NCBI GenBank assembly: GCA_039801505.1 | Contig: JBDRUV010000004.1 | Span: 1 to 64,000, forward strand | Length of the DNA: 64,000 nt | Direction of reading: 5' to 3' | Origin: a candidate division WOR-3 bacterium | GTDB taxonomy: Bacteria; Hydrothermota; Tepidihabitantia; Tepidihabitantales; CAIPLT01 | Shown here: one piece after another, positions 952-15,066 of the stretch | How the letters are laid out: each line of letters starts with the position of its first letter | Position numbering within the stretch: position 1 is the stretch's first letter | Made by a program: the position numbers and the translations under genes | Notes under the pieces: generated by a model | What the model was told of the DNA's origin: nothing | Seen by the model: only the letters and a program-made list of their open reading frames with translations | The model's database searches: none

Positions 952-2754
952 ATGAAAAAAATGCAAGCATTTTTAATTTTCAGTATGCTTTTGAGTTGGG
1001 TAATGGGCATAAATCCACCCGCGGTTAACTCCAATTCATTTAGTTTTGTGGTACTGGGAGATCGCACCGGTAGCGTTGATCAACCGGTGTTTGAACAAAT
1101 TCTTGCACAAATTAAGGCCCTCAGTCCTGACTTTATTTTTAATATTGGCGATCTAATTGAAGGCTATACTTCAGCGGTAGACTCAATAAACCAAGAATGG
1201 AATTTTGTGTTAACTAAGCTTGGGGAATTAAAAGAAAAGTTCTTTTTTACACCCGGAAATCATGACATATGGGATTCTTTGAGTAAGGCAATTTATTTAA
1301 AACTAACTGGGTATCCGAATACATATTATAATTTCTCCATAGGTAAAAACCATTTCATTATACTTGATAATAGCTTACAAGAACGAGGCGACAAATTTGA
1401 TACAACACAATTAAACTGGCTTACCAAGGCTCTTGCGGCTATTAAAAAAAGTGATAAAATATTCTGTTTTATGCACAAATCTTTCTGGAAAGAGGCTTAT
1501 CTTAACAATACCCCCGATACCCTTCATAAATTGTTTGTAAAATATGGGGTTGACTATGTATTTTCCGGCCATGACCATTACTATTGCCAACTCAATTGGG
1601 ACGGAATCACCTATATTCAGGTAGGGCCTTCCGGAAGTCGTTATAAAATATATAAAAAAGAAGAATATGGCGCATTCCAAAATTTCGTGTATGTTTTAGT
1701 AAAAAGTAACGATGTGGAAATTAAAGTGATAAAACCCGATGGCCAGAAGCTAAGTTGTGACATTGTAACTCTAGATGACATTAAGACATTAGAAAGAATT
1801 GAAAATACGGTTACAATTACTCCAATAAGCCTTGATGACTTCGATATTGAGTATAGCACTGGGACCACAGCCGTGTCTAAAGAAATCGAGGTCGTAATTG
1901 ATAATATAACTAAATTTCCGTTAAATTCCTTTGGCCGGTGGTACGTGCAACGACCAAATTGGAATATACTGCCCCAAGAAACAACAGTGTTTATTCCGGC
2001 CCAAAGTAGCATGAGCTACAGATACCGATGGCAATTAGTAAATGAAAGTCTCTATCCTTTGCCACACTTTCAGATTAATTACCCTTACGGTCAGCTGGGC
2101 AATAAAACATATAAAGTAACAAAACTGTTACCCCTACAGCGCAATACTCAGTGTGTATTTACTGCAGAGAAGATAAAAGTTGATGGGGTGCTTACGGAAA
2201 AAATTTGGCAAAAACTCAGACCAATCCGAATATTTGGAGCAAGCGACGGCGATGTTTCGAAAACTGACCCGTGGCAAGTTTATTTTGCTTATGATCAAGA
2301 TTATATCTATATTGCGGCCAAATTAACTGATTGGGAACCGGATAGAATTGTTTCGATAATCAATAGACGTGATGATAAAGTTTATAATGACGACCACGTA
2401 AATATTATCCTCAAGCCCACACCAGCCGAACAAGATACTTATTACCAGTTCTTTGTCAATGCCTCTGGGATAGTAATGGATCGAAAGTGTTATCTTGTTG
2501 GTAAAGATTCCAAAAAAGAACTTAACTGGAATAGCAACATTGTCGCCAAAACCCACCGGATAAACTCCAAGGGCTTCAAGGGCTGGACATTGGAAGCCAA
2601 AATCCCGCTAAAAGATCTTACAGCTCAAACACCTACCATCTGGGGTTTTAATCTGGCGCGCTTTCAAAAGCGTAAAGAACAAGTCAGTATCTATTCAGTG
2701 CCATTCGAACATAACCCTAAAACATTTGCCACTCTTTATTTTATACCAAAATAG
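952..2754 (+). CDS. Secreted calcineurin-like metallophosphoesterase with C-terminal CBM9-like domain
   Basis: A 600-aa protein with an N-terminal signal peptide (residues 1 to about 19). Residues 30-270 form a calcineurin-like phosphoesterase domain with the dimetal motifs GDRTG (~37), GDLIEG (~67), GNHDIWD (~102), MHKSFW and SGHDHYY (~205). Substrate unknown. Residues ~280-395 look like a linker or beta-sandwich. Residues ~400-600, with DGVLTEKIWQKL and the WTLEAKIPL pattern, resemble the family 9 carbohydrate-binding (DOMON-like) fold found in many secreted proteins. Binding of a periplasmic or surface glycan is inference. The start at 952 fits the leaderless promoter. The next gene begins 3 nt after the stop and has no SD, so the two are probably co-translated. 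Confidence 0.85.
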   Translation: MKKMQAFLIFSMLLSWVMGINPPAVNSNSFSFVVLGDRTGSVDQPVFEQILAQIKALSPDFIFNIGDLIEGYTSAVDSINQEWNFVLTKLGELKEKFFFTPGNHDIWDSLSKAIYLKLTGYPNTYYNFSIGKNHFIILDNSLQERGDKFDTTQLNWLTKALAAIKKSDKIFCFMHKSFWKEAYLNNTPDTLHKLFVKYGVDYVFSGHDHYYCQLNWDGITYIQVGPSGSRYKIYKKEEYGAFQNFVYVLVKSNDVEIKVIKPDGQKLSCDIVTLDDIKTLERIENTVTITPISLDDFDIEYSTGTTAVSKEIEVVIDNITKFPLNSFGRWYVQRPNWNILPQETTVFIPAQSSMSYRYRWQLVNESLYPLPHFQINYPYGQLGNKTYKVTKLLPLQRNTQCVFTAEKIKVDGVLTEKIWQKLRPIRIFGASDGDVSKTDPWQVYFAYDQDYIYIAAKLTDWEPDRIVSIINRRDDKVYNDDHVNIILKPTPAEQDTYYQFFVNASGIVMDRKCYLVGKDSKKELNWNSNIVAKTHRINSKGFKGWTLEAKIPLKDLTAQTPTIWGFNLARFQKRKEQVSIYSVPFEHNPKTFATLYFIPK

Positions 2755-2757
2755 CTC

Positions 2758-5538
2758 ATGTCAAAATTTGGTCTACTATTATTAAGTTTTTTAAGTGTCT
2801 CCTTATTGTTTTCTCAATTCCTTACTGAGAAGGAAAAAGCTTATCTAATAAAAAGTCTAGATGTTCATGGTATTACTACTGAAGAATTGGGTTTTGAAAA
2901 AAAATGGGTTCCAGATAGTTTTTTGCTGAACGTAGTAAAAGACTTAATGAATGACCCCCTGAAAGCCCCTTGTTATCTTGAAACCACTATAAACCAAATT
3001 GAGCAGCATAAAGATAGCGTCTCCGGGCTTGTTGTTTTGCTTAATAATAATCTGGACTTAAAAATTTCTCCACAAGATGTCCGGGAGATCAAAGCCAAAA
3101 ACAAAGGTAATACTTCAGATACTTCCATTGCCGAAGCTGTTCGTCTGATTAAAACTACTATCCAGGTTGGTGAGTACTACCTTCGGCGGAGTATAAAGAA
3201 TATCACGCCTGAGGAACTTAATAAATTAGTAATGATGCTTCCAACCCTCTGGATAGACGAAGATGATAGCTTATCAAAATTCAAAGGGGTTTTACATCGT
3301 GAGTTTGGTCGAGAAATTGATACCGGCGTGAAAGTTGAAATTGAGACAATTCTTCAGTTGGTCAGGAAAATCGATCGTAAATCTTTAGCCCTAGCTTGTC
3401 TTACTTGGGTTATTGGCACGGAACGAGTGCTTGTCATTGCAAATGAGCTTAAGCATAATAATTTTCCTGTATTTGAAGCGGATTGTGGCAAAGTATATTA
3501 TTATGAAGAAACACCCTGGGGTAAATTGGTAATTGGCAGTGAAGAGAACAATAGGTATGAAGGCGATTATACGATAGTCATTGACCTCGGGGGTAATGAC
3601 AGCTATCGGGGAAGAATTGGTAGTGGATTGGGGATATTTTCTCAGCCTTTTTCCCTAGTAATTGATTGTGAGGGAAACGATTTTTATGATACTCGCGATA
3701 AACTGTTTTCACTGGGCGCTGGTCTCTTAGGCTGCGGGATAATTGTTGACCAAAATGGCAACGATATTTATTTAGGAAGCCATTATTCAATCGCGACTGG
3801 GCTTTTGGGATTGGGGCTTGTTTGGGACCAAAATGGCGACGACCTCTACACTGCGGGTTGCTTTTCCCTCGGTGCTGGTAATTGGGGCATAGGGATGCTT
3901 TTAGATAATCAGGGTTCAGATACTTATCGCGGCTATGAATTTTCTCAAGCGTTCAGTTCGAGTTGGGGTTATGGTTTATTGGCTGATTTTGAAGGTAATG
4001 ATCTATATTATGCTGGTGGTAGGTATCTGCATACCCCGCTATTGCCAAAAGATCATCGTTCTTTGTCGCAAGGATTCTCTATCGGTTTTCGACCACTAGC
4101 AGCTGGCGGTATTAGTCTCTTATACGATAAGGCTGGGCAAGATAATTATAATGTCGGTGCCTTTGGTCAGGGTTCAAGTTACTGGTATAGCTTAGGCATG
4201 TTATACGATAAGGCTGGTAACGATTTCTATAATGCTACAGAATATGCCCAAGGTGCTGGTATTCATCTTTCAGTGGGAATTCTCTTAGACGAAGAAGGTT
4301 CAGACCATTATTTCTCGCGTTTGGGACCGGCTCAAGGTGAAGGTCATGATTTATCAGTAGGGATATTAATTGATAAACGAGGCAATGACTCCTATTTAAC
4401 TAGCGGTGGCCAAGGGGTTGGGCTTACTAACTCGGTAGGAATTTTTTTAGATGCCGAAGGTGACGATTTTTACGGCAGTCGCGAAGCAGGCATTCGCCAG
4501 GGTAGTGCTAATTGGTCGCGGGGTTTTGGTGGAATCGGTGTATTTTTAGATTTGGGCGGCAATGATATTTATCCTCAAGAAGAGATCTTTAGCAATAACC
4601 AATATTGGACTCAGACCGTATTCGGCTCAGGAATTGATACCGCACTTCAAATGCCCGCTGAAGAAGAAATTATCCAAGAAGAACCGGATACGACAATCTC
4701 CAAGATTGAAGAGATTTTTAAAATGGCTGCCCTATGGGAAGTAGGTAATGCTCGTAAGAAAGTAAAATGGGCCCGCGAAAAACTAAAAGAGTCACCCAAT
4801 GAAGCTATAGACTACATCTTTGCCAATAAAATTACTACCAAAGACGGCTTAGAACTGCGCGCCATCGAAGATTTAGCCAAAAGTTATCCCGATTCGTTTA
4901 AACCCAGACTATATCAGGCGCTTTATCACCAGGATCGTTGGGCCCGAGCTAATGCTGCTTATCTATTAGGGAAAATCAAAGTCGATGATGCTCAAGATTC
5001 ACTGTATCGGGCTTACCGAGAAAAACGCATAAGGGCCCGAACGATGATTTCAGCCTTAGAAGACATTGGGGATAGCAGTAGTTTTCATATAATCTATCGG
5101 TTTCTTAGCTACCCAGAGGAGCCAACCCGCATTGCAGCCGCGCGGGCTTTAGGTAAACTAAAAACACCCCGGGCAATACCTTGTTTATATCGGGCGTTAG
5201 ATGATAAATATTTCACAGTCCGAATTGCCGCGGAATCGGCCTTAGTGGCTCTCGGCGACTTTACTTTAAGATACTTACTAAATCTCAGGCCTAATCCGAA
5301 AAGCATTGGTATCTTAGGGGTCTTAGGTGTCAACCTTGATAGCCTCAGTTATCAAGAAACTCGCACTGAAATCATCAATCGGATTATTCCGTACCTTAAG
5401 CATCCTAAAGCAGCTATAAGATTAAAAGCGGTCGAGGCCCTAGGACGCTTTAGTGAAGCGAAGCCGACGTTGGAAGAAAACCTGGCTCAGGAAACCGACA
5501 AATTTGTAATCAGCAAGTACCGCCAGGTGCTAAAATAA
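2758..5538 (+). CDS. Secreted G-x-D-x-Y repeat solenoid protein with HEAT-like C-terminus
   Basis: A 926-aa protein with a signal peptide (MSKFGLLLLSFLSVSLLFSQ). Residues ~20-260 are mostly helical. Residues ~270-605 hold twelve copies of a motif of the form (V/L)xDxxGxDxY, for example VIDLGGNDSY, IVDQNGNDIY and LLDNQGSDTY. The motifs are separated by 25-35 residues rich in Gly, Ser and Gln (SQGxG, IGLLxD). This spacing suggests a parallel beta solenoid with stacked Asp/Asn turns; calcium binding is possible but unproven. Residues ~660-926 contain HEAT/armadillo-like helical pairs (RIAAARALGKLKTPRAIPCL, RLKAVEALGRF). It follows the phosphoesterase by 3 nt, so a shared export or surface role is likely. 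No enzyme motif was seen. Confidence 0.75.
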   Translation: MSKFGLLLLSFLSVSLLFSQFLTEKEKAYLIKSLDVHGITTEELGFEKKWVPDSFLLNVVKDLMNDPLKAPCYLETTINQIEQHKDSVSGLVVLLNNNLDLKISPQDVREIKAKNKGNTSDTSIAEAVRLIKTTIQVGEYYLRRSIKNITPEELNKLVMMLPTLWIDEDDSLSKFKGVLHREFGREIDTGVKVEIETILQLVRKIDRKSLALACLTWVIGTERVLVIANELKHNNFPVFEADCGKVYYYEETPWGKLVIGSEENNRYEGDYTIVIDLGGNDSYRGRIGSGLGIFSQPFSLVIDCEGNDFYDTRDKLFSLGAGLLGCGIIVDQNGNDIYLGSHYSIATGLLGLGLVWDQNGDDLYTAGCFSLGAGNWGIGMLLDNQGSDTYRGYEFSQAFSSSWGYGLLADFEGNDLYYAGGRYLHTPLLPKDHRSLSQGFSIGFRPLAAGGISLLYDKAGQDNYNVGAFGQGSSYWYSLGMLYDKAGNDFYNATEYAQGAGIHLSVGILLDEEGSDHYFSRLGPAQGEGHDLSVGILIDKRGNDSYLTSGGQGVGLTNSVGIFLDAEGDDFYGSREAGIRQGSANWSRGFGGIGVFLDLGGNDIYPQEEIFSNNQYWTQTVFGSGIDTALQMPAEEEIIQEEPDTTISKIEEIFKMAALWEVGNARKKVKWAREKLKESPNEAIDYIFANKITTKDGLELRAIEDLAKSYPDSFKPRLYQALYHQDRWARANAAYLLGKIKVDDAQDSLYRAYREKRIRARTMISALEDIGDSSSFHIIYRFLSYPEEPTRIAAARALGKLKTPRAIPCLYRALDDKYFTVRIAAESALVALGDFTLRYLLNLRPNPKSIGILGVLGVNLDSLSYQETRTEIINRIIPYLKHPKAAIRLKAVEALGRFSEAKPTLEENLAQETDKFVISKYRQVLK

Positions 5539-6255: not shown

Positions 6256-6603
6256 ATGAATAAAGATATTCCAAACTTTGCAAAAATTTTCAAGGCTCTT
6301 TCTGACGATAATAGGTTAAAGATATTGCTATTTGTTTATAAAAAGGAATGTAAATGCAAAGATAGCCAACTTTCCTGCCAAAATGAAACTTGCATTAAAG
6401 ATTTATCTAAATTGTTAAATATTACTACTCCCACCATTTCTCATCACATTAAAGAGCTTGTTAATGCAGGTCTTATTATTACAAAAAAAGAAGGAAAATG
6501 GGTCTATTGCAAGGTAAACAGAAAAACATTTGAAAAAGTTTGTATTTTTATAAGCGGGTTTTTTAATAATAAAGGTCGAAATTTAAAATTAGGAGGAAAA
6601 TAA
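6256..6603 (+). CDS. arsR: ArsR-family metalloregulator
   Basis: A 115-aa winged-helix repressor. The ArsR/SmtB core (FKALSDDNRLKILLFV, then LLNITTPTISHHIKELVNAGLI as recognition helix and KWVYCKVN as wing) spans residues ~8-95. A cysteine-rich insert (ECKCKDSQLSCQNETC, residues ~33-50) follows the first helices and would supply thiolate ligands for As(III) or a similar thiophilic ion. An SD-like GAAAGGTG precedes the ATG. It is the first gene of the island operon, 1 nt before arsM. Confidence 0.9.
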   Translation: MNKDIPNFAKIFKALSDDNRLKILLFVYKKECKCKDSQLSCQNETCIKDLSKLLNITTPTISHHIKELVNAGLIITKKEGKWVYCKVNRKTFEKVCIFISGFFNNKGRNLKLGGK

Positions 6604-6604
6604 A

Positions 6605-7419
6605 TTGGACAAGAAAAAAACACAGAAAATCGTAAGAGAAGCCTACGGCAAGATTGCCCAAGGGCAAAAAGGTTGTGAGTGCGGCACTTATGGACCTGAC
6701 ACAAAAACCTTTGTTAAATCTGTTGGTTGTTCGAAGGAGGAACTAAAAGTTATTCCAGAGGAAGCTAACTTGGCTCTTAGCTGTGGAAATCCTACGGCCT
6801 TAGCCAGCCTCAAAGAAAGTGAGATAGTACTTGACCTTGGTTCAGGCGCGGGATTTGATTGTTTTTGGCGGCAAGCAGAGTTGGTGCAAATGGCAAGGTT
6901 ATCGGAGTAGATATGATACCTGAAATGGTTGAAAAAGCGAGAGAGATCGCAGAAAAAAATGCAGTAAGAAATGTTGAGTTTAGGCTCGGCGAAATTGAAA
7001 ATTTGCCGGTAGCAGATAACTCAATTGATGTAGTAATAAGCAACTGTGTTATCAATTTATCATCCAATAAACCAAAAGTGTTTCAAGAAATCCATAGAGT
7101 CTTAAAGCCGAGCGGGAGAATAGCAATCTCTGATATTGCCCTTCTCAAAGAACTCCCGAAAAAAATTCAGGAAAGTATGGAAGCATATGTGGGTTGTGTT
7201 GCAGAAGCCATGCTTATTAACGAGTATAAAAGGATCGTTGAGGCATCCGGATTAAAGGATGTAAAAATTACGGTCAAGGGCTCTTCATCCTGTATTGCCC
7301 CCGACACAAAAGACCCGATAGGTAGAGCTATTTTAGATGGTTTAAGGGAGAATGAATCTCTCGAAGGGTATGTGGTTAGTGTTTATGTGGAGGGATACAA
7401 ATATGGCCAAAAAAAATAA
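6605..7419 (+). pseudogene. arsM: Arsenite methyltransferase, broken by a 1-nt frameshift
   Basis: Two overlapping frames together encode one ArsM-type SAM-dependent methyltransferase of about 271 aa. Frame 1 starts at TTG 6605 (AGGAGG 8 nt upstream) and carries the N-terminal cysteine region (KGCECGTYG, SVGCSKEE) and SAM motif I (VLDLGSGAGFDCF). The frame then changes at a T5 run (6862-6866); one extra T restores LAASRVGANGKVIGVDMIPEM and the rest, including SNCVINLS, YVGCVAEA and SSCIAPDT. The Cys residues typical of ArsM are all present. ArsM methylates As(III) to volatile or less retained species. The indel may be a real inactivating mutation or an assembly error. Frame 1 alone would give a 101-aa dead fragment. 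Confidence 0.85.
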
Positions 7420-7529
7420 TAGTAATTATTTTAATACTCATTGCAACCTTCTTATTGATTTATGGTTGCATAGGCGAGAAAGTAATCAAGATGGTAAACG
7501 AAGATAACGAAACAAAGGAGGCGAAAAAT
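7403..7529 (+). other. Out-of-frame lipoprotein-type leader for the DUF2703 gene
   Basis: An ATG at 7403, inside the end of arsM, has a strong SD (GGAGGG, 7389-7394) 8 nt upstream. As written it encodes a 34-aa peptide. If the A8 run at 7409-7416 is read as A7, the frame becomes MAKKIIVIILILIATFLLIYGC and continues without a stop into the DUF2703 protein. That sequence is a clear membrane or lipoprotein signal with a Cys at residue 22. The gene may therefore be frameshifted, misassembled, or decoded by slippage on the A8 tract. Confidence 0.6.
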
Positions 7530-7985
7530 ATGAAGACACTAAAAATCAAGTGGCAGAGGCTTGTATCTGGCGGACAAACATGTCCAAGATGTGGGTCAAC
7601 AGAGGAAGAATTAGAAAAGGCAATTTCTACTCTTAAGCAATCTCTTACTCCGTTAGGCATACAAGTCGTCCTGGAAAAGGATGAACTTTCTGTTGCGGAG
7701 TTCAAAAAAGACCCCTTGCGGTCTAATCAGATTTGGCTTAACGATCGACTCTTGGAAGATTGGATCGGCGGTAAAGTCGGTCAGAGCCCGTGTTGTGATG
7801 TCTGTGGTCCTTCTGAGTGTAGAACCGTTGGGATTGGTGAAGAAGTCTACGAAGCAATCCCTGCGGACTTAATCATTAAAGCTGGACTTCTCGCGGCTTC
7901 ACAGTTGGTTGTTAGAGAAACCAATGAGTCATGTTGCGAGAGTGAGGCCCCAAAAACACCAACCACTAGTTGTTGTCCAAAATAG
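7530..7985 (+). CDS. DUF2703 cysteine-rich protein of the arsenic operon
   Basis: From the ATG at 7530 (AAAGGAGG 8 nt upstream) the product is 151 aa and soluble. An upstream in-frame TTG at 7455 exists but lies inside the leader described separately. Motifs include CPRCGST near the N-terminus, CCDVCGPSEC in the middle, and CC pairs near the C-terminus (ESCCES, TSCCPK). The family is known from arsenic resistance operons and has a thioredoxin-like look with paired cysteines, but its reaction is not established. A role in binding arsenic or handling thiols is inference. It is the last gene of the arsR operon and is followed by a terminator hairpin. Confidence 0.8.
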   Translation: MKTLKIKWQRLVSGGQTCPRCGSTEEELEKAISTLKQSLTPLGIQVVLEKDELSVAEFKKDPLRSNQIWLNDRLLEDWIGGKVGQSPCCDVCGPSECRTVGIGEEVYEAIPADLIIKAGLLAASQLVVRETNESCCESEAPKTPTTSCCPK

Positions 7986-8024
7986 CACAGCTCTTTAATT
8001 CTAAAATTGTTATTTCAGTAATTT

Positions 8025-8053
8025 GGTTCTATCTAAAAGTAGAGCCATTTTTT
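8025..8053 (+). terminator. Rho-independent terminator of the ars operon
   Basis: GGTTCTA (8025-8031) pairs with TAGAGCC (8040-8046), with one G-U pair, followed at once by ATTTTTT. It lies 40 nt after the DUF2703 stop and overlaps the 3' end of the XRE remnant on the other strand. Confidence 0.7.
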
Positions 8054-8272
8054 ACATATATGTTGTATTGTAATAAATCGTCAACAGAAACATTAAAGCT
8101 TTGGCCAATTTTTGAAGCGTGTCAATTGAGGGATTGGTGATGCCCCTGATTCTAACTTTATGACCGTGTTATAGGAAATATCAGCCAATTTAGAAGGCCG
8201 GTCTTGCGATAAGCTTTTTTGTTTTCTTAATTTCTTTATATTTTTGCTTATTGGCGAAATCTCTCTTGACAT
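8029..8272 (-). pseudogene. XRE-family HTH regulator, two frameshifts
   Basis: On the minus strand an ATG at 8272 opens a Cro/C1-type helix-turn-helix protein (ISKNIKKLRKQKSLSQD, then KLADISYNTVIKLESG). After LESG the frame breaks at a run of four C (8143-8146, plus strand); one added base restores GITNPSIDTLQKLAKAL. A second missing base near 8093 is needed to continue NVSVDDLLQYNIYVKNG to a TAG at 8029. With both repaired it is a normal ~80-residue XRE domain protein. Such regulators often accompany mobile or restriction cassettes. Confidence 0.8.
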
Positions 8273-8294
8273 TATAGCATCAAAATAATAGTAT
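8266..8294 (+). promoter_or_regulatory. Rightward promoter opposite the XRE remnant
   Basis: TTGACA (8266-8271), 17-nt spacer, TAGTAT (8289-8294). It overlaps the 5' end of the XRE remnant and points away from it, the usual place for a promoter controlled by such a regulator. It would now transcribe a truncated reading frame and the right inverted repeat. Confidence 0.5.
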
Positions 8295-8330
8295 GTATGT
8301 ATGAAGTAATCACAATCTATATCTATAACT

Positions 8331-8385
8331 ATGATACAAAATTATTTTGATAATGTAAAGACATTTTTAGGGAGTTTAATTTCAA
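8331..8385 (+). pseudogene. Truncated 5' end of an unknown gene
   Basis: A start at 8331 reads MIQNYFDNVKTFLGSLISN and then runs into the GC-rich repeat element beginning at about 8384, where coding character is lost. The nominal ORF continues to 8774 only because the repeat lacks stops in this frame. It is probably the remnant of a gene once paired with the XRE regulator and cut by the repeat. Family unknown. Confidence 0.4.
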
Positions 8386-8627
8386 ATGCCCGCGCACGGG
8401 AGGGCTTGGGGCAAGGGCATTTACCTTTTTTCTTTTCTAAAAATCATCGGCTCGCCCGCGAAGTGGGCATGGCGGGTGGGCAAAAAGGAAGGGGGTCTGG
8501 AGGAAGGAATCTTTGCCCGCCCCATCGTTTGGGGTGGGAAAGCGTTTCCGCAATTCCTGCATCAACAGGAAGGCAAAACAGAAAAATTTTCGTTTTCTTA
8601 ATTGAAAAAATTTTTGCGAGGGGGCGA
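8384..8627 (-). repeat. Right inverted repeat of the arsenic island
   Basis: 8439-8627 is the inverted counterpart of 5938-6127. The element may begin at 8384, where AAATGCCC (8384-8391) pairs with GGGCATTT (8415-8422). In the L orientation the hairpin stem is TTCCTGT-TGAT-GCAGGAA, differing from the left copy by a change that keeps pairing as G-U. CCCCAAACGATGGGG is a better stem here than in the left copy. No protein is supported. Confidence 0.85.
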
Positions 8628-8639
8628 TTAAAAAATGTT

Positions 8640-8720
8640 AAGAAAATTTTTCTGTTTTGCTCGTCGACAGGCGAGCGGAAACGCTGGGCGGGTCAATCGG
8701 CAAAATCCTCTGGATTTTGC
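8640..8720 (+). repeat. Third, diverged partial copy of the repeat element
   Basis: AGAAAATTTTTCTGTTTTGC (8641-8660) and GCGGAAACGCT recur in the left-copy orientation. The segment between them is a different sequence that again folds into a 7-bp hairpin (GCTCGTC-GACA-GGCGAGC). A further 9-bp hairpin GCAAAATCC-TCT-GGATTTTGC occupies 8700-8720. With 8573-8590 of the right copy this forms an 18-bp inverted repeat. Up to 8767 nothing else is visible. Confidence 0.65.
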
Positions 8721-8767
8721 TCAAAGAATGTCCTGACATCGTCCAACAGACACCACTTTGTAGATAA

Positions 8768-9412
8768 ATGCTAACAGCACAAGAAATTAAAAAATTAATC
8801 GGACCATATCAGCATAAGAAGTTAATTTTAGCACCTAAGCACTGCGCGCTTGTAGTAATTGACATGCAGAACGACTTTTTTGATCCGGGCTCACCGGCAT
8901 ATACCGAAAATGCCCAAGAAATTGTTCCGAATATCAAAAGATTAATCCAAGTGGCCCGGGAAAGTAAAATCCCGGTAATTTATACGGCGCATGCGCATCA
9001 GGATCCGAAAATTGACGGCGGTATGACCGCGCTTTGGTGGGATGAAATAAATTTGAAAAAGAGCTTGGTGGAAGGTACGCGGGGCGCGGCAATTATTCCG
9101 GAGCTGGCACCATTACCCCATGAAAAGATAATCTATAAGCATCGTTATTCGGCGTTTTATAATACCGACCTGGAACTTTACTTGCGCGGCCTTAAGGTTA
9201 CGGATTTAATCGTTACCGGTATTATGACCGAGATCTGCGTTGAATCTACGGTCCGCGAGGCTTTTATGCGTGACTACCGAGTATTTGTGGTGGCTGACGG
9301 CACCGCGGCTGGCCAGTGGGAATTACATCTAAATTCCTTAAAGGTAATTGCATATGGTTTTGGATATGTAACTACAACCCAGTCAATTATTCGAAAAATA
9401 AAGACAGTCTAG
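8768..9412 (+). CDS. Isochorismatase-family cysteine hydrolase (nicotinamidase-like)
   Basis: A 214-aa protein with the family's catalytic triad: Asp32 (VVIDMQNDFFDPG), Lys124 (IIYKHRYSAF) and Cys157 (GIMTEICVESTVR), the last next to the conserved cis-peptide region. Members hydrolyse amides or vinyl ethers such as nicotinamide, isochorismate or N-carbamoyl compounds. The exact substrate cannot be told from sequence alone. There is a weak CTGACA/TTTGTA promoter match just upstream (8733-8762), not strong enough to list separately. The gene lies between the repeat elements and the polysaccharide locus and is transcribed with the latter's direction. Confidence 0.85.
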   Translation: MLTAQEIKKLIGPYQHKKLILAPKHCALVVIDMQNDFFDPGSPAYTENAQEIVPNIKRLIQVARESKIPVIYTAHAHQDPKIDGGMTALWWDEINLKKSLVEGTRGAAIIPELAPLPHEKIIYKHRYSAFYNTDLELYLRGLKVTDLIVTGIMTEICVESTVREAFMRDYRVFVVADGTAAGQWELHLNSLKVIAYGFGYVTTTQSIIRKIKTV

Positions 9413-10213: not shown

Positions 10214-12718
10214 ATGAGCCCAACTAAAACCCAAGCAGATAAGGTTTATCTTATCGATGGTCATTCTTTGGCCTATCGCTCGTATTTTGCATTTATTCGT
10301 AATCCCCTGAGAAACTCTAAAGGAGTAAACACTTCGGCAACCTTTGGTTTTACTAATTCCTTAAAAAAGATTTTCAATACTTTTTCGCCTAAGTATCTTG
10401 CAGTAGTATTTGATTCCGGGAAAGAAACCTTTCGGCATAAACTTTATGTGGAATATAAAAAAGAACGCCCTCAAACTCCATCCGATTTAGTGGCGCAACT
10501 ACCCTTTATAAAGGAAATCGTCAGTGCTTACGGCATAAAAATTTTGGAGATGCCCGGTTATGAAGCCGATGATATTTTAGCTACCGTTGCCCGCAAACTT
10601 TCTCAAAAGGGTCATAAGGTTTATATTATCACTTCGGATAAAGACCTATTTCAACTTGTTAACGAGAACATCTTTATCTACGATGTCTATAAAGAAATTG
10701 TCTATGATGTTCAAAAAACTAAAGAGAAATTCGGGGTTAGTAACCCAGCAAAAGTACGGGAGCTATTGGCCTTAGCTGGCGACACAATCGATAATATTCC
10801 TGGGGTACCGGGTATTGGTCCCAAGCGCGCCTTAGAAATTCTTACCAAATATCAATCTCTAGACGAAGCCCTAGAAAATGACGAGCGGCTTAAAACATAT
10901 AAAGATTTAGTGTCACTGTCTTTAGAATTGGCCACAGTGAAAAGCGACTTGCCACTCCGGGTAGTTTTAAGAGACTTTCGAATTAAAAAACCAGACACTC
11001 CACGACTTATTAAGCTTTTTACAGAGTTAGAGTTTAGCACTTTCTTAAAAGAATTAGCGAATAGCCATCGCATTCGCATATCTCAACCATCATTAGTAGT
11101 TAGTAATCAAGCCGAAGATGCTAACGATAAATTTAGCTTCATTTTTTCTTCTGGTGAGTTGATATTTTACCGTCAAAATCAGATTTTTCGAACCAAAGAC
11201 CCCACAGAAATTAAAAAACTTTTGGGGAGTGAAGTCTTAAAAATCGGTCATGACATTAAAAGCCAAATGCATCTTTTGGCACCTTACGGCATTAAGATTG
11301 CACCACCGTATTTTGATTTAAAAATTGCCGATTGGCTCTTAGATTCCACCAGAAAACGCTATGAACTTTCTGATCTGCTTTTTAGACATTTCCAAATTAT
11401 TTTACCGGAAACCGATCTGTCTGAGACGACCCGATATTTGTTTTTGCTATATAAAAAACTTGAACCGGAACTTGCTTTTCACAAATTACATACCCTCTAC
11501 GAAGAAATAGAAATGCCTACTATTGCGGTGTTATTCAATATGGAACGCCGTGGGATAAAGGTTGATTTAGAACTGTTTAATAGGCTTACCCAAGAGATTA
11601 AGGCTGAAAAGGAAAATTTAAAAAAGAAAATATACGAAGAGGTTGGATTAGAATTCAATCTAAATTCTCCAAAACAACTTTCCCAAATTTTATTTGAAAA
11701 ATTATCGCTCCCAAGAACCAAACGCACCAAAACCGGCTTCTCAACCGATTCCGATGCCCTATCGGAGTTAGCTCTAAAATATCCTATCGCAAAAGATATT
11801 CTGCGTTACCGTGAGCTTTCAAAACTTCAAAATACCTATTTAGAACCAATTGCGCTTTTAGTTCAATCGAAAACCAATCGCATTCATTGTCAGTTCAACC
11901 AAACCCAAACAGCAACTGGCCGACTTTCTTCTTCAGAACCAAACTTACAAAATATTCCAATAAAAGGCAGTCTAGGAGCTAAAATCCGCGAAGGGTTCAT
12001 TGCCGACGAAGGATTTATCTTAATCTCAGCTGATTACTCTCAAATCGAATTAAGAATTTTGGCATACCTTACAGGTGATGAAAATCTTAAACAGGCCTTT
12101 TGGGAAAACAAAGATATTCATGTACGAACTGCCGCTAATATCTTCCATAAGCAAGAATCCGAGGTTACCGAAGAAGAACGCCGCACAGCAAAAATGGTAA
12201 ATTATGGATTAATCTACGGCCTCTCGAGTTATGGCTTAGCTTTTGCTTTGGGAATATCTGAAGAAGACGCTCAAAACATAATTGAAGAATTTCTATCCAC
12301 TCATTATCGAGTTCGGGAGTGGCAAAACGAAGTTATTAAACAAACCAAAGAAACTGGATACGGAAAAACTATCTGGGGACGAATTCGACCTTTTCCGGGG
12401 ATCTATGCCCAAAACCGAATAATTTACGAACAGGCTGTGCGACAAGCAATTAACCATCCAATCCAGGGTAGTGCGGCTGATATTATAAAGAAGACAATGT
12501 GCGAAATTGATAAAGAACTAATTCAGCAGGGCTATAAGAGTGGGCTACTTTTACAAATCCACGATGAACTCCTTTTAGAAATTGAAGAACATCGCGCCGA
12601 TGAAGCTGAAGAACTTATCAGAGAAATTATGTCTCAAAATTATTTAGACGACGTACCTTTAATAGTAAATATTGGACGAGGTAAGAATTGGCGATTAGCT
12701 CACCAAGCAAACGAATAA
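10214..12718 (+). CDS. polA: DNA polymerase I
   Basis: An 834-aa family A polymerase. Residues ~5-280 are the 5'-3' exonuclease (YLIDGHSLAYRSYFA, GYEADDILATVA, TSDKDLFQLV, GDTIDNIPGVPGIGPKRAL). Residues ~300-430 occupy the place of the 3'-5' exonuclease but lack the DxE motif, so proofreading is probably absent as in Taq polymerase. Residues ~440-834 are the polymerase, with motif A (DYSQIELRILAYLTGD), motif B (RRTAKMVNYGLIYG) and motif C (QIHDELLLEI). It fills gaps during repair and removes RNA primers. Its position inside a polysaccharide locus looks incidental. The end overlaps the wecB start by 31 nt. Confidence 0.97.
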   Translation: MSPTKTQADKVYLIDGHSLAYRSYFAFIRNPLRNSKGVNTSATFGFTNSLKKIFNTFSPKYLAVVFDSGKETFRHKLYVEYKKERPQTPSDLVAQLPFIKEIVSAYGIKILEMPGYEADDILATVARKLSQKGHKVYIITSDKDLFQLVNENIFIYDVYKEIVYDVQKTKEKFGVSNPAKVRELLALAGDTIDNIPGVPGIGPKRALEILTKYQSLDEALENDERLKTYKDLVSLSLELATVKSDLPLRVVLRDFRIKKPDTPRLIKLFTELEFSTFLKELANSHRIRISQPSLVVSNQAEDANDKFSFIFSSGELIFYRQNQIFRTKDPTEIKKLLGSEVLKIGHDIKSQMHLLAPYGIKIAPPYFDLKIADWLLDSTRKRYELSDLLFRHFQIILPETDLSETTRYLFLLYKKLEPELAFHKLHTLYEEIEMPTIAVLFNMERRGIKVDLELFNRLTQEIKAEKENLKKKIYEEVGLEFNLNSPKQLSQILFEKLSLPRTKRTKTGFSTDSDALSELALKYPIAKDILRYRELSKLQNTYLEPIALLVQSKTNRIHCQFNQTQTATGRLSSSEPNLQNIPIKGSLGAKIREGFIADEGFILISADYSQIELRILAYLTGDENLKQAFWENKDIHVRTAANIFHKQESEVTEEERRTAKMVNYGLIYGLSSYGLAFALGISEEDAQNIIEEFLSTHYRVREWQNEVIKQTKETGYGKTIWGRIRPFPGIYAQNRIIYEQAVRQAINHPIQGSAADIIKKTMCEIDKELIQQGYKSGLLLQIHDELLLEIEEHRADEAEELIREIMSQNYLDDVPLIVNIGRGKNWRLAHQANE

Positions 12719-13836
12719 AGGTTTTATTTGTTTTTGGTACCAGACCCGAGGCTATCAAACTAGCACCGGTAATAAAAGAATTTCAAAAATTCGGGGACTT
12801 TTTTGAAGTTAAAATATGCGTCACGGCTCAACATCGCGAAATGCTCGATCAAGTTCTTCGGATTTTTAAAATCACTCAGGATTACGATCTTAATATTATG
12901 GAAGAAAACCAAACACTTTTTAGCACCAGTATTCGGGTCTTAAAAAAACTTCAGTTGCTTCTAAAAAAGCTACAGCCAGAATTAATGTTCGTCCAAGGCG
13001 ATACGACTACGGCGTTTATATCCGCCTTATCAGGTTTTTATCTAAAGATTCCGATAGCTCATGTTGAAGCCGGCCTAAGAACTTACGATAAATATGCACC
13101 ATTTCCTGAAGAAATTAATCGCCGACTAATTACCCAATTAGCTGATTATCACTTTGCGCCGACCAGATTAGCATACAAAACGCTTATTAGAGAAGGAATC
13201 CCCAATTCGAAAATATTGATCACCGGTAACACAGTGATCGACGCTTTGCTTTTGGCCCTTAAACTTAATCCAAACTACACTCCGCCAATTCTTAAAAAAT
13301 TACCGCCGAGTAGAAAAATTATTTTGGTAACCGCCCATCGCCGGGAAAGTTTCGGTGTCCCCTTTGAACATATCTGCCAGGCATTAAAAACAATCGTGAA
13401 AGAAAATAGCGACGTGGAAATAATCTATCCGGTACATCCTAATCCTAACATAAAAAAACCGGCTTATAAATTTTTGGGAAACATTGAGCGGATCCATCTA
13501 ATACCCCCTCAAGATTATCTTTCGTTTGCTAAGCTAATGAATGCCTGCTATCTAATTCTTACCGACTCTGGTGGAATTCAAGAAGAAGCACCGGCATTAA
13601 AAAAACCGGTTTTAGTCTTACGAGAAAAGACCGAACGTCCCGAAGCGATTATTGCTGGTACTGCTAGATTGGTAGGAACAACGCCGGAACGCGTTGTCAA
13701 AGAAACCAATCTGCTATTACGGTCTGAAGAGGAATATAAAAAAATGGTAAAGTACAAGAATCCTTTTGGTGACGGTAAAGCTGGCAATCGAATCGTGAAC
13801 TATTTTTTAAATTTAATTGACAAAAGAATAATTTGA
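12688..13836 (+). CDS. wecB: UDP-N-acetylglucosamine 2-epimerase (non-hydrolysing)
   Basis: A 382-aa protein with the WecB hallmarks VLFVFGTRPEAIKLAPV, TAQHREMLDQVL, VQGDTTTAFISAL, HVEAGLRTYDKYAPFPEEINRR, TAHRRESFG and LTDSGGIQEEAP. It interconverts UDP-GlcNAc and UDP-ManNAc, supplying ManNAc or ManNAcA units for a surface glycan. The TTG at 12688 is the only standard start near the conserved N-terminus and has a GAGGT just upstream; it lies inside the end of polA. An alternative start closer to IKVLFVFG would need an unusual ATA codon. Confidence 0.9.
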   Translation: MAISSPSKRIKVLFVFGTRPEAIKLAPVIKEFQKFGDFFEVKICVTAQHREMLDQVLRIFKITQDYDLNIMEENQTLFSTSIRVLKKLQLLLKKLQPELMFVQGDTTTAFISALSGFYLKIPIAHVEAGLRTYDKYAPFPEEINRRLITQLADYHFAPTRLAYKTLIREGIPNSKILITGNTVIDALLLALKLNPNYTPPILKKLPPSRKIILVTAHRRESFGVPFEHICQALKTIVKENSDVEIIYPVHPNPNIKKPAYKFLGNIERIHLIPPQDYLSFAKLMNACYLILTDSGGIQEEAPALKKPVLVLREKTERPEAIIAGTARLVGTTPERVVKETNLLLRSEEEYKKMVKYKNPFGDGKAGNRIVNYFLNLIDKRII

Positions 13837-13851
13837 GCATAAACTTTTACG

Positions 13852-15066
13852 ATGCCATCTATTATCGAGTACATTAAAATTTTATTAAAATATCGAAAGT
13901 TTGTTTTTTACAATGTAATCGTTTTTGCATGTATATCTGCAGTAATAAGTCTTGTTTTACCTCAGAAATTTAAAGCTACCGCACAAATTTTGCCACCAGC
14001 CGAAGAGGCCGACTTATTTGGTGCCCTTTCGGGAATTTCTTTGCCGAAATTAAGCCGGTTGGTAAAAAGTGGCAGCTTTTTTGCTCAATCTACCCCATCG
14101 GATTTGCTTGCTGTAATTCTTCAGAGCCGTACCATTCTTGAAAGGGTTGTGCTTGATAATGACCTTAAAAAAATATATAAGGTCAAAAAAGGTATAGAAC
14201 CAGCGTTAAAGACTTTAGCAAAAGCGACGAAAATAAAAGTCGGCGAAGAAGGTGTAATTGAACTTACAGTTGAGGCTCCAAAAGCGGAGTTGGCAGCTAA
14301 TATTGCAAATAGTTACCTTTTTCACCTAGATAAATTTCTAAAAGAATCGAACATGAGTCGAGGGAAAAACATGAGAATCTTTATCGAAAGACGCCTTGAG
14401 TCTCAACGAGAGGAACTTCGACTGGCCTCTGAATCTTTAAAAGTATTTCTCGAATGTAATAAATTAGTTGCTTTAGATGAAGAAACCAAAGCAATTATTG
14501 AAGCTTATGCACTTTTAAAGACAGAATTATTAAAACGAGAAATTCAATTACAGATTACCAGAGATCTTTCAGGAGAAGATAATCCATATCTTTTTGAATT
14601 AACCCGAGAAATTGAAAATTTTCGGAATGAACTTAAAAAATTAGAAACTGGAGACCCAAAAGTCCGTTCGGGTTTCGGTGTCGGATTCGCGATAGCGTTA
14701 AAAAATTTACCTCAGATTGCCCAGGAATACGCAAAACGACTGCGAGAATTTCGAGTACAGGAAGAAATCTATGCCCTACTTCTTTCGCAGCTTGAACAAG
14801 CTAAAATTCTCGAGGCCCGTGATACGCCAACAATTACTATTTTAGATTATGCACGAGTTCCCGAAAGAAGAAGCTGGCCCAAAAGAAAATTAATCGTAGT
14901 TTTTGCGTGCTTTATCGGTTTTTTAATAAGCACCCTTATCGCTTTAGGAAAAGAGTGGTACTACCGAACAAAAAAAGAATCCAAGGCTTATTTATTTATA
15001 ATCACTACCATTAAACAAGATTTTTCGAACCTTTTTCATAAAATCAAAAAAAACAGTAGGTGCTAA
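13852..15066 (+). CDS. Wzz-family polysaccharide chain-length/co-polymerase protein
   Basis: A 404-aa PCP protein. It has an N-terminal membrane segment (FVFYNVIVFACISAVISLVL, residues ~17-37), a long periplasmic part with coiled-coil segments (RRLESQREELRLASESLKVFLE) and a second membrane segment near residues 345-367 (LIVVFACFIGFLISTLIAL). The N-terminal ATAQILPP motif after the first membrane helix is typical of Wzz/GumC proteins. No tyrosine-kinase domain is fused. It would set glycan chain length with the Wzy polymerase encoded next. The stop overlaps the next start. Confidence 0.85.
   Translation: MPSIIEYIKILLKYRKFVFYNVIVFACISAVISLVLPQKFKATAQILPPAEEADLFGALSGISLPKLSRLVKSGSFFAQSTPSDLLAVILQSRTILERVVLDNDLKKIYKVKKGIEPALKTLAKATKIKVGEEGVIELTVEAPKAELAANIANSYLFHLDKFLKESNMSRGKNMRIFIERRLESQREELRLASESLKVFLECNKLVALDEETKAIIEAYALLKTELLKREIQLQITRDLSGEDNPYLFELTREIENFRNELKKLETGDPKVRSGFGVGFAIALKNLPQIAQEYAKRLREFRVQEEIYALLLSQLEQAKILEARDTPTITILDYARVPERRSWPKRKLIVVFACFIGFLISTLIALGKEWYYRTKKESKAYLFIITTIKQDFSNLFHKIKKNSRC

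Follow-up and report, generated by a model that had tools for sequence, protein, structure and literature searches.

A protein of 926 amino acids (aa) that combines a twelvefold repeat with a HEAT domain is encoded by the open reading frame (ORF) 2758–5538 (+) of contig JBDRUV010000004.1 from a WOR-3 bacterium (assembly GCA_039801505.1; the window analyzed here comprises positions 1–64,000, forward strand). From N- to C-terminus, it is composed of a signal-like N-terminus with a helical domain, a solenoid, and a C-terminal HEAT domain. We propose that it is exported and clamped by calcium, that its solenoid binds or processes a polymer of the envelope by means of coils 7–11, and that the HEAT domain docks it. 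Our confidence in this picture as a whole is moderate, higher for the fold and lower for catalysis. The strongest signal is a set of invariant residues outside the repeat motif on coils 7–10, which an earlier note on this DNA, made from the sequence alone, did not contain. The features of the protein are as follows:

2758..2817, + strand: N-terminal hydrophobic segment, probable Sec signal, aa 1–20 (read from the sequence)
2827..3450, + strand: helical N-terminal domain, aa 24–231 (AlphaFold2/DSSP helices H24–35 to H207–231)
3520..4647, + strand: predicted twelve-coil beta-solenoid domain, aa 255–630 (AlphaFold2, conservation)
3583..4572, + strand: twelve D-x-x-G-x-D-x-Y motifs, D276 to Y605, proposed calcium turns (motif search)
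4015..4077, + strand: conserved 20-residue excursion between coils 6 and 7, aa 420–440, possible lid (47-aa spacing)
4090..4092, + strand: R445, coil 7 (alignments)
4180..4185, + strand: Y475-W476, coil 8 (alignments)
4264..4266, + strand: H503, coil 9 (alignments)
4345..4350, + strand: H530-D531, coil 10 (alignments)
4429..4431, + strand: N558, coil 11 (alignments)
4705..5535, + strand: C-terminal HEAT-repeat domain, aa 650–926 (Pfam, fold matches)

The motif D-x-x-[GS]-x-D-x-Y starts at aa 276, 303, 331, 357, 383, 410, 457, 484, 511, 539, 565, and 598. Successive starts are 27, 28, 26, 26, 27, 47, 27, 27, 28, 26, and 33 residues apart, i.e., a basic length of 26–28 residues is interrupted by two longer steps (47 and 33). 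The earlier note had described a twelvefold repeat, and exactly twelve motifs were counted, compared to a mean of 0.034 and a maximum of 2 in 20,000 shuffles of the whole protein, and a mean of 0.048 and the same maximum if only the solenoid was shuffled. A repeat profile from 52 orthologues revealed Asp, Gly, Asp, and Tyr at the key positions with frequencies of 96%, 98%, 99%, and 96%, respectively, and Leu two residues ahead of the first Asp in 62%. The complete D-G-D set (D0, G3, and D5) is present in 582 of the 621 repeat cells. The Gly/Ser/Gln-rich spacers that had also been described are real and follow a loose S/A-Q-G-x-G pattern (Q 32% at +14 and G 44% at +15). Orthologous repeats share 51% identity, different repeats within one protein only 32%, which argues for a fixed role of each individual coil.

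Structure prediction with AlphaFold2 for the full-length protein (52 aligned sequences) resulted in a mean predicted local distance difference test (pLDDT) of 90.0 and a predicted template modeling score (pTM) of 0.85. As a structure search with this model returned HEAT-type matches only, the solenoid was folded alone (32 aligned sequences). The outcome was a confident beta-solenoid (mean pLDDT 91.5, pTM 0.90, five models at pLDDT 90.1–91.6), in which each coil comprises a long strand before the motif, a strand after it and, in most coils, a third, very short strand. Asp and Tyr form ladders along the model, which, together with the signal-like N-terminus, is in agreement with the Asp/Tyr ladder on a secreted beta-solenoid that had been suggested from the sequence. 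Upon re-alignment with VIA-align 2, 3p4g_A ranked first among the matches listed (Z 22.2, root-mean-square deviation (rmsd) 2.7, 257 aligned residues, 18% identity), followed by a phage tailspike (Z 18.1). Identity over aligned pairs amounted to 14–18% for the RTX-type structures 3p4g, 7rah, and 7usl and to at most 10% for the other matches listed, which is consistent with motif being aligned on motif. A viral fold library yielded no match under E 0.001, and a PHROG search no match for the family (best E 0.33).

The earlier note had considered the motif unplaceable. This holds insofar as no Pfam or NCBIfam model scored over its cut-off on the solenoid; however, the motif fits the register of the RTX calcium turn, and 3p4g is the best solved match of the solenoid model. 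In the RTX numbering given in PMC6891781 (X1-U2-X3-G4-G5-X6-G7-X8-D9), it reads x-L-x-D-x-x-G-N-D-x-Y. U2, G7, and D9 are kept and the next U is Tyr, whereas G4 is changed to Asp and G5 is free. Judged by its sequence, the motif is a variant of the RTX calcium turn and not a member of RTX, since Asp replaces one Gly and a coil has about 27 instead of 18–19 residues. The structure 3p4g is described as a Ca2+-bound RTX-like beta-helix, namely region IV of the Marinomonas primoryensis antifreeze adhesin (MpAFP-RIV), whose 19-residue repeat contributes a single GTGND calcium turn to each coil and which carries calcium on only one of its sides (PMC6891781; PMC3492233). As two rows of acidic side chains stack in the predicted solenoid, cations would be needed, for which calcium is the obvious choice.

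A true RTX-family protein, i.e., a Ca2+ beta-roll secreted by type I secretion, would account for the same turn register, for Leu and Tyr at the U positions, and for an RTX-type adhesin as the best fold match. We nevertheless regard this as improbable. The GGxGxD motif is missing in the window protein and occurs once each in 3 of the 52 orthologues, tandem GGxGxDxUx nonapeptides are absent, and Pfam hemolysin-type models did not match the window protein up to E 10. Furthermore, coils of about 27 residues compare to 18 in RTX, and a signal-like N-terminus and a C-terminal HEAT domain are found instead of a C-terminal secretion signal. These termini would rather speak against type I secretion. 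For lack of GGxGxD, and with its signal-like N-terminus and HEAT C-terminus, the protein was not filed under RTX.

Conservation is highest in the solenoid, with a mean identity to the window protein of 46% for coils 1–6 and 57% for coils 7–12 (51 orthologues), compared to 34% for the HEAT domain and 25% for the N-terminal part (48 orthologues). R445, Y475, Q498, H503, and D531 are present in all 52 HEAT-type orthologues, H425, H530, N558, and R588 in 51, and W476 and Q397 in 45. The conservation was followed further in a superfamily alignment of 31 proteins (17 of the 52 orthologue rows and 14 paralogue ORFs, with a partial ORF in locus L146 left out). It contains 17 HEAT-fused proteins, four of the same type without HEAT in the ORF, seven of a stand-alone type, one with HEAT and TPR, and two with an N-terminal PDZ domain; TPR was identified by Pfam, as was PDZ for the one of the two PDZ-type proteins that was scanned. 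Besides Gly and the motif itself, only Q397, R445, Y475, H503, and D531 are invariant in all 31 members, and N558 is kept in 84%. R445, Y475, H503, and D531 are invariant across all five architecture classes as well as in all 52 orthologues. According to DSSP of the model, W476, H503, D531, and T557 each form the first residue of the equivalent turn in coils 8, 9, 10, and 11, respectively. In coil 7, the turn is extended by a few residues, and R445 is located in it, behind the short strand. The conserved excursion (aa 420–440), modeled with low confidence (pLDDT 61–73), adjoins these residues in sequence. Different fixed residues in equivalent places of consecutive coils are typical of a binding or catalytic site rather than of a purely structural repeat, and the fixed residues on coils 7–10 of the predicted model likely represent a ligand-binding or catalytic edge.

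The fusion to HEAT-like repeats, which the earlier note had likewise proposed, is clear from Pfam: HEAT_2 (PF13646) matched with E 3.4e-24 (85.4 bits vs. a cut-off of 27.7, best stretch aa 761–829) and HEAT with E 3.5e-10, and the cut-offs of HEAT, HEAT_2, and HEAT_PBS were all exceeded. HEAT_2 was found in each of the 52 members of the orthologue alignment. Helices of the model span aa 650–925, and the fold matches are alpha-Rep/HEAT proteins (best Z 17.3, rmsd 6.8, 260 aligned residues), which places the domain among the HEAT repeat proteins by both family model and alpha-solenoid fold. The two domains differ in charge, as the solenoid is acidic (46 D+E, 19 K+R) and the HEAT domain basic (35 D+E, 48 K+R). 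In one clade (L139 and L147), the solenoid and HEAT are encoded by two adjacent ORFs, of which the second, at most a putative orthologue of the window's HEAT domain, starts with a hydrophobic segment as well; these split forms support an exported solenoid-plus-HEAT pair. Regarding export, 71 orthologues have a closed 5' end, and for 66 of them a simple hydropathy rule identified a hydrophobic stretch near the N-terminus. Omp85 is encoded in all 147 genomes of the window's phylum, which indicates diderm hosts, and inner and outer membranes are described for the cultured WOR-3 strain sy37 (PMC12285271).

In our proposal, the protein would be exported to the periplasm or surface of diderm bacteria, and its core would be a twelve-coil parallel beta-solenoid of approximately 27 residues per coil, in each of which x-L-x-D-x-x-G-N-D-x-Y would form one tight turn. 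The stacked Asp rows D0 and D5 would hold a string of Ca2+ along one edge, similar to RTX turns, and Tyr and Leu would fill the interior; if held by Ca2+, the solenoid would fold solely outside the cytoplasm. The putative working site would be located on another edge, consisting of R445, (Y475)W476, H503, (H530)D531, and N558 at the turn that connects the short strand with the main one in coils 7–11, beside the excursion loop. The ligand bound by this site would be specific and extended, with a glycan or some other polymer of the envelope as the most likely option, and catalysis by His, Asp, and Arg would be possible there. Docking of the solenoid to a partner protein would be the task of the HEAT domain. 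With more reserve, the proteins could be viewed as envelope enzymes or highly specific glycan receptors of a new family, tentatively defined by a Ca2+-clamped solenoid, an RTX turn with Asp for Gly, an active site in the form of an R-W-H-D-N line on coils 7–11, cooperation with an exported HEAT partner, and a near-core occurrence in WOR-3, Cloacimonadota, and allied phyla.

Several points weigh against the proposed exported, calcium-clamped solenoid. Calcium in the turns is suggested just by the motif register and the match to 3p4g, and a side chain at G4 is described to clash in the canonical RTX calcium site (PMC6891781), so that with Asp at this position any metal site would need a variant geometry. 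Foldseek returned nothing under E 0.001 for the solenoid model, with 3p4g at the top (E 0.45), and a profile search of all PDB sequences revealed no solved chain up to E 10. It is further reported that, for perfect repeats, AlphaFold2 tends to predict beta-solenoids that stack charges and are false in spite of high confidence (PMC11795689); without metal, the stacked Asp would be an instance of this very error. A known catalytic motif was not recognized in the solenoid, nor did a Pfam enzyme family score over its cut-off there; PL6, GH28, and pectate lyase are fold matches at 6–9% identity. Finally, no neighbor is conserved across the family, so that the genome context is uninformative, and the separate HEAT ORFs of the split forms match the HEAT domain of the window protein only weakly (E 4e-5 and 0.013).

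The missing enzyme motif would fit a purely structural or adhesive solenoid, i.e., a spacer, an adhesin, or an envelope scaffold, whose conserved edge only stabilizes coils 7–11 or binds the HEAT or N-terminal domain. The closest solved match, 3p4g, is an adhesin domain, and as HEAT and solenoid are fused in all 52 orthologues, an internal contact could conserve the residues. We consider this possible but rather unlikely: R445, Y475, H503, and D531 are invariant also where the ORF lacks HEAT or carries a PDZ or TPR addition, for which reason a HEAT contact hardly explains their conservation. In addition, adhesins usually diverge fast, whereas the solenoid is the best conserved part of this protein. 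The published AlphaFold2 bias and a sub-threshold match to the SBBP propeller repeat (PF06739; E 0.0013, 19.1 bits vs. a cut-off of 20.5; 4 of 52 orthologues match at E up to 1) could also mean that the solenoid is an artefact and that the repeats form something else, e.g., a beta-propeller. This appears very improbable. The bias is less worrying for repeats as diverged as these (32% identity within the protein, 51% between orthologues), the models were built on alignments of 32–52 natural sequences, all five solenoid models are of high confidence, and they agree with a solved protein that has a GND turn. A confident propeller or RTX match, which the earlier note had named as an outcome that would refute its reading, was not obtained over cut-off in Pfam/NCBIfam, nor among PDB sequences.

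Relatives of the whole protein (E ≤ 1e-10) were detected in 81 of 100 relatives' genomes. With the solenoid profile (E ≤ 1e-5), the domain was identified in the window's own phylum (114 of 147 genomes) and in the phyla to which a Cloacimonadota genome (89 of 98 sampled genomes), an Eisenbacteria genome (13 of 47), and a Delongbacteria genome (5 of 5) belong. As it was not found in 33 of the 147 genomes, including five nearly complete ones of one family (f14), the solenoid seems widespread but dispensable in the phylum. A search of genome contigs confirmed 166 loci, of which 80 were kept. Since HEAT-fused proteins provided the search patterns, more distant forms in other phyla may have escaped detection. 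From the kept loci, 51 entered the 52-row orthologue alignment (A2) and 31 alignment A3; the first alignment (A1) comprised 17 of 29 relatives' loci. Loci were left out if they were partial, interrupted by stops or frame breaks, close to chosen ones, or had long uncertain N-termini. Most loci are labeled WOR-3/Stahlbacteria, Cloacimonadota, or Fermentibacteria/Aegiribacteria, and a few are labeled Eisenbacteria, Hydrothermus, or Delongbacteria; the labels Latescibacterota, Armatimonadetes, and Acetofilamentum apparently conflict with the genome grouping and should not be trusted. A mobile or viral origin was rejected, with no relative in plasmids, phages, or viral contigs. A link to type IX secretion was not supported: SprA_N is present in 134 of the 147 genomes, and the solenoid in 11 of 13 genomes without and 103 of 134 with it. 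We found no publication on the solenoid family, in a search largely without subscription papers and preprints, which makes this weak evidence of absence.

Some loci contain deviating paralogues. Locus L138 encodes two solenoid paralogues of different type (3402–5051 and 7286–8926) on the same strand within 4 kb. In the Eisenbacteria paralogues of L148 (1891–4815) and L149 (1827–4649), the solenoid is located behind an extra N-terminal region, which is PDZ-like in L148, and in one coil the motif has lost its first Asp and its Gly, with H503 and D531 kept.

Immediately upstream of the solenoid gene, the window contains one further relevant feature:

952..2754, + strand: secreted calcineurin-like phosphoesterase with CBM9 domain (Pfam)

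This ORF matched Metallophos (E 6.5e-16) and CBM9_1 (E 4.2e-10), and its stop lies 3 bases before the next ATG. The co-transcription of the two genes assumed in the earlier note is compatible with this adjacency, but the pairing does not extend to the family. Of the 80 loci, 59 have 1.8 kb or more of upstream sequence, and only 3 of these carry a metallophos/CBM9 neighbor (L034, L035, and L036), all of them closest relatives of the window. The gene is thus an operon partner in the window's close relatives only, and its role as a general conserved partner was rejected. Other scanned neighbors are mostly household genes that vary between clades, e.g., for acetyl-CoA synthetase, pyruvate carboxylase, thiamin pyrophosphokinase, a histone-deacetylase-like protein, and peptidases. 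A tricorn-like S41 peptidase is found at position +1 in nine loci and a SurA-like rotamase at position −1 in seven, apparently in Cloacimonadota only. These rotamase and peptidase flanks, as in locus L051 (5116–7794 (−) and 10934–14014 (+)), possibly represent an envelope proteostasis neighborhood.

Regarding the remaining surroundings in the window, the fragment ORF 3–731 (−) upstream of the operon matches several parts of one longer ORF in L034 (3–2771), and thus holds internal repeats. Downstream, an arsenite-methyltransferase-like gene (6605–7419) is split into overlapping frames (6605–6910 and 6859–7419) and preceded by an ArsR-like gene (6256–6603), both named by reading the sequence, without a family search; the frameshift may be real or an assembly error.

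The family is kept in about four fifths of the genomes sampled from one phylum and nine tenths of those from another, mostly in genomes below 4 Mb, and its most conserved domain is without a family model in the Pfam and NCBIfam releases searched. Being near-core yet without such a model, in hosts known mostly from metagenomes, it is a strong candidate for an unrecognized core envelope function. In several phyla that have hardly been studied, the protein may well be a new enzyme or binding protein of the envelope. R445, H503, D531, and the other invariant residues would be the first mutants to consider, and the motif offers a testable variant of how calcium may hold a protein spiral together outside the cell.

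Among known systems, the HEAT/PBS-lyase repeat proteins resemble the C-terminal domain, which differs here in its predicted export and its fusion to a beta-solenoid. The long parallel beta-helix is shared with tailspikes (P22 and CBA120) and with enzymes such as pectate lyase, polygalacturonase, and PL6 (Z 10.5–18.1 in VIA-align 2 among the matches listed), and active sites of these enzymes are built from residues of stacked coils; however, identity is 6–9%, they lack the repeat motif, and no known catalytic set was matched. The nonapeptide beta-roll of RTX proteins has U, G7, D9, and the next U in identical spacing, whereas the window protein has Asp at G4, a free G5, one site per coil, no tandem nonapeptides, and no type I signal that we could find. 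Closest is region IV of MpAFP/MpIBP, with which the predicted model has in common a right-handed parallel beta-helix with one GND-containing turn per coil. Region IV has its own 19–21-residue repeat xGTGNDxUxuGGxUxGxUx, with Gly at x1 of the present motif and no Asp at D0, as well as a flat Thr/Asx ice-binding face, and is part of a 1.5 MDa RTX adhesin. The window protein has neither the 19-residue repeat nor a regular Thr/Asx column outside the motif turn, but about 27 residues per coil, an R-Y/W-H-D edge, a HEAT fusion, and a signal-like N-terminus. It is MpAFP-RIV-like in its predicted fold; what is new is the length of the repeat, the chemistry of the turn, the conserved edge, and the domains it is combined with.

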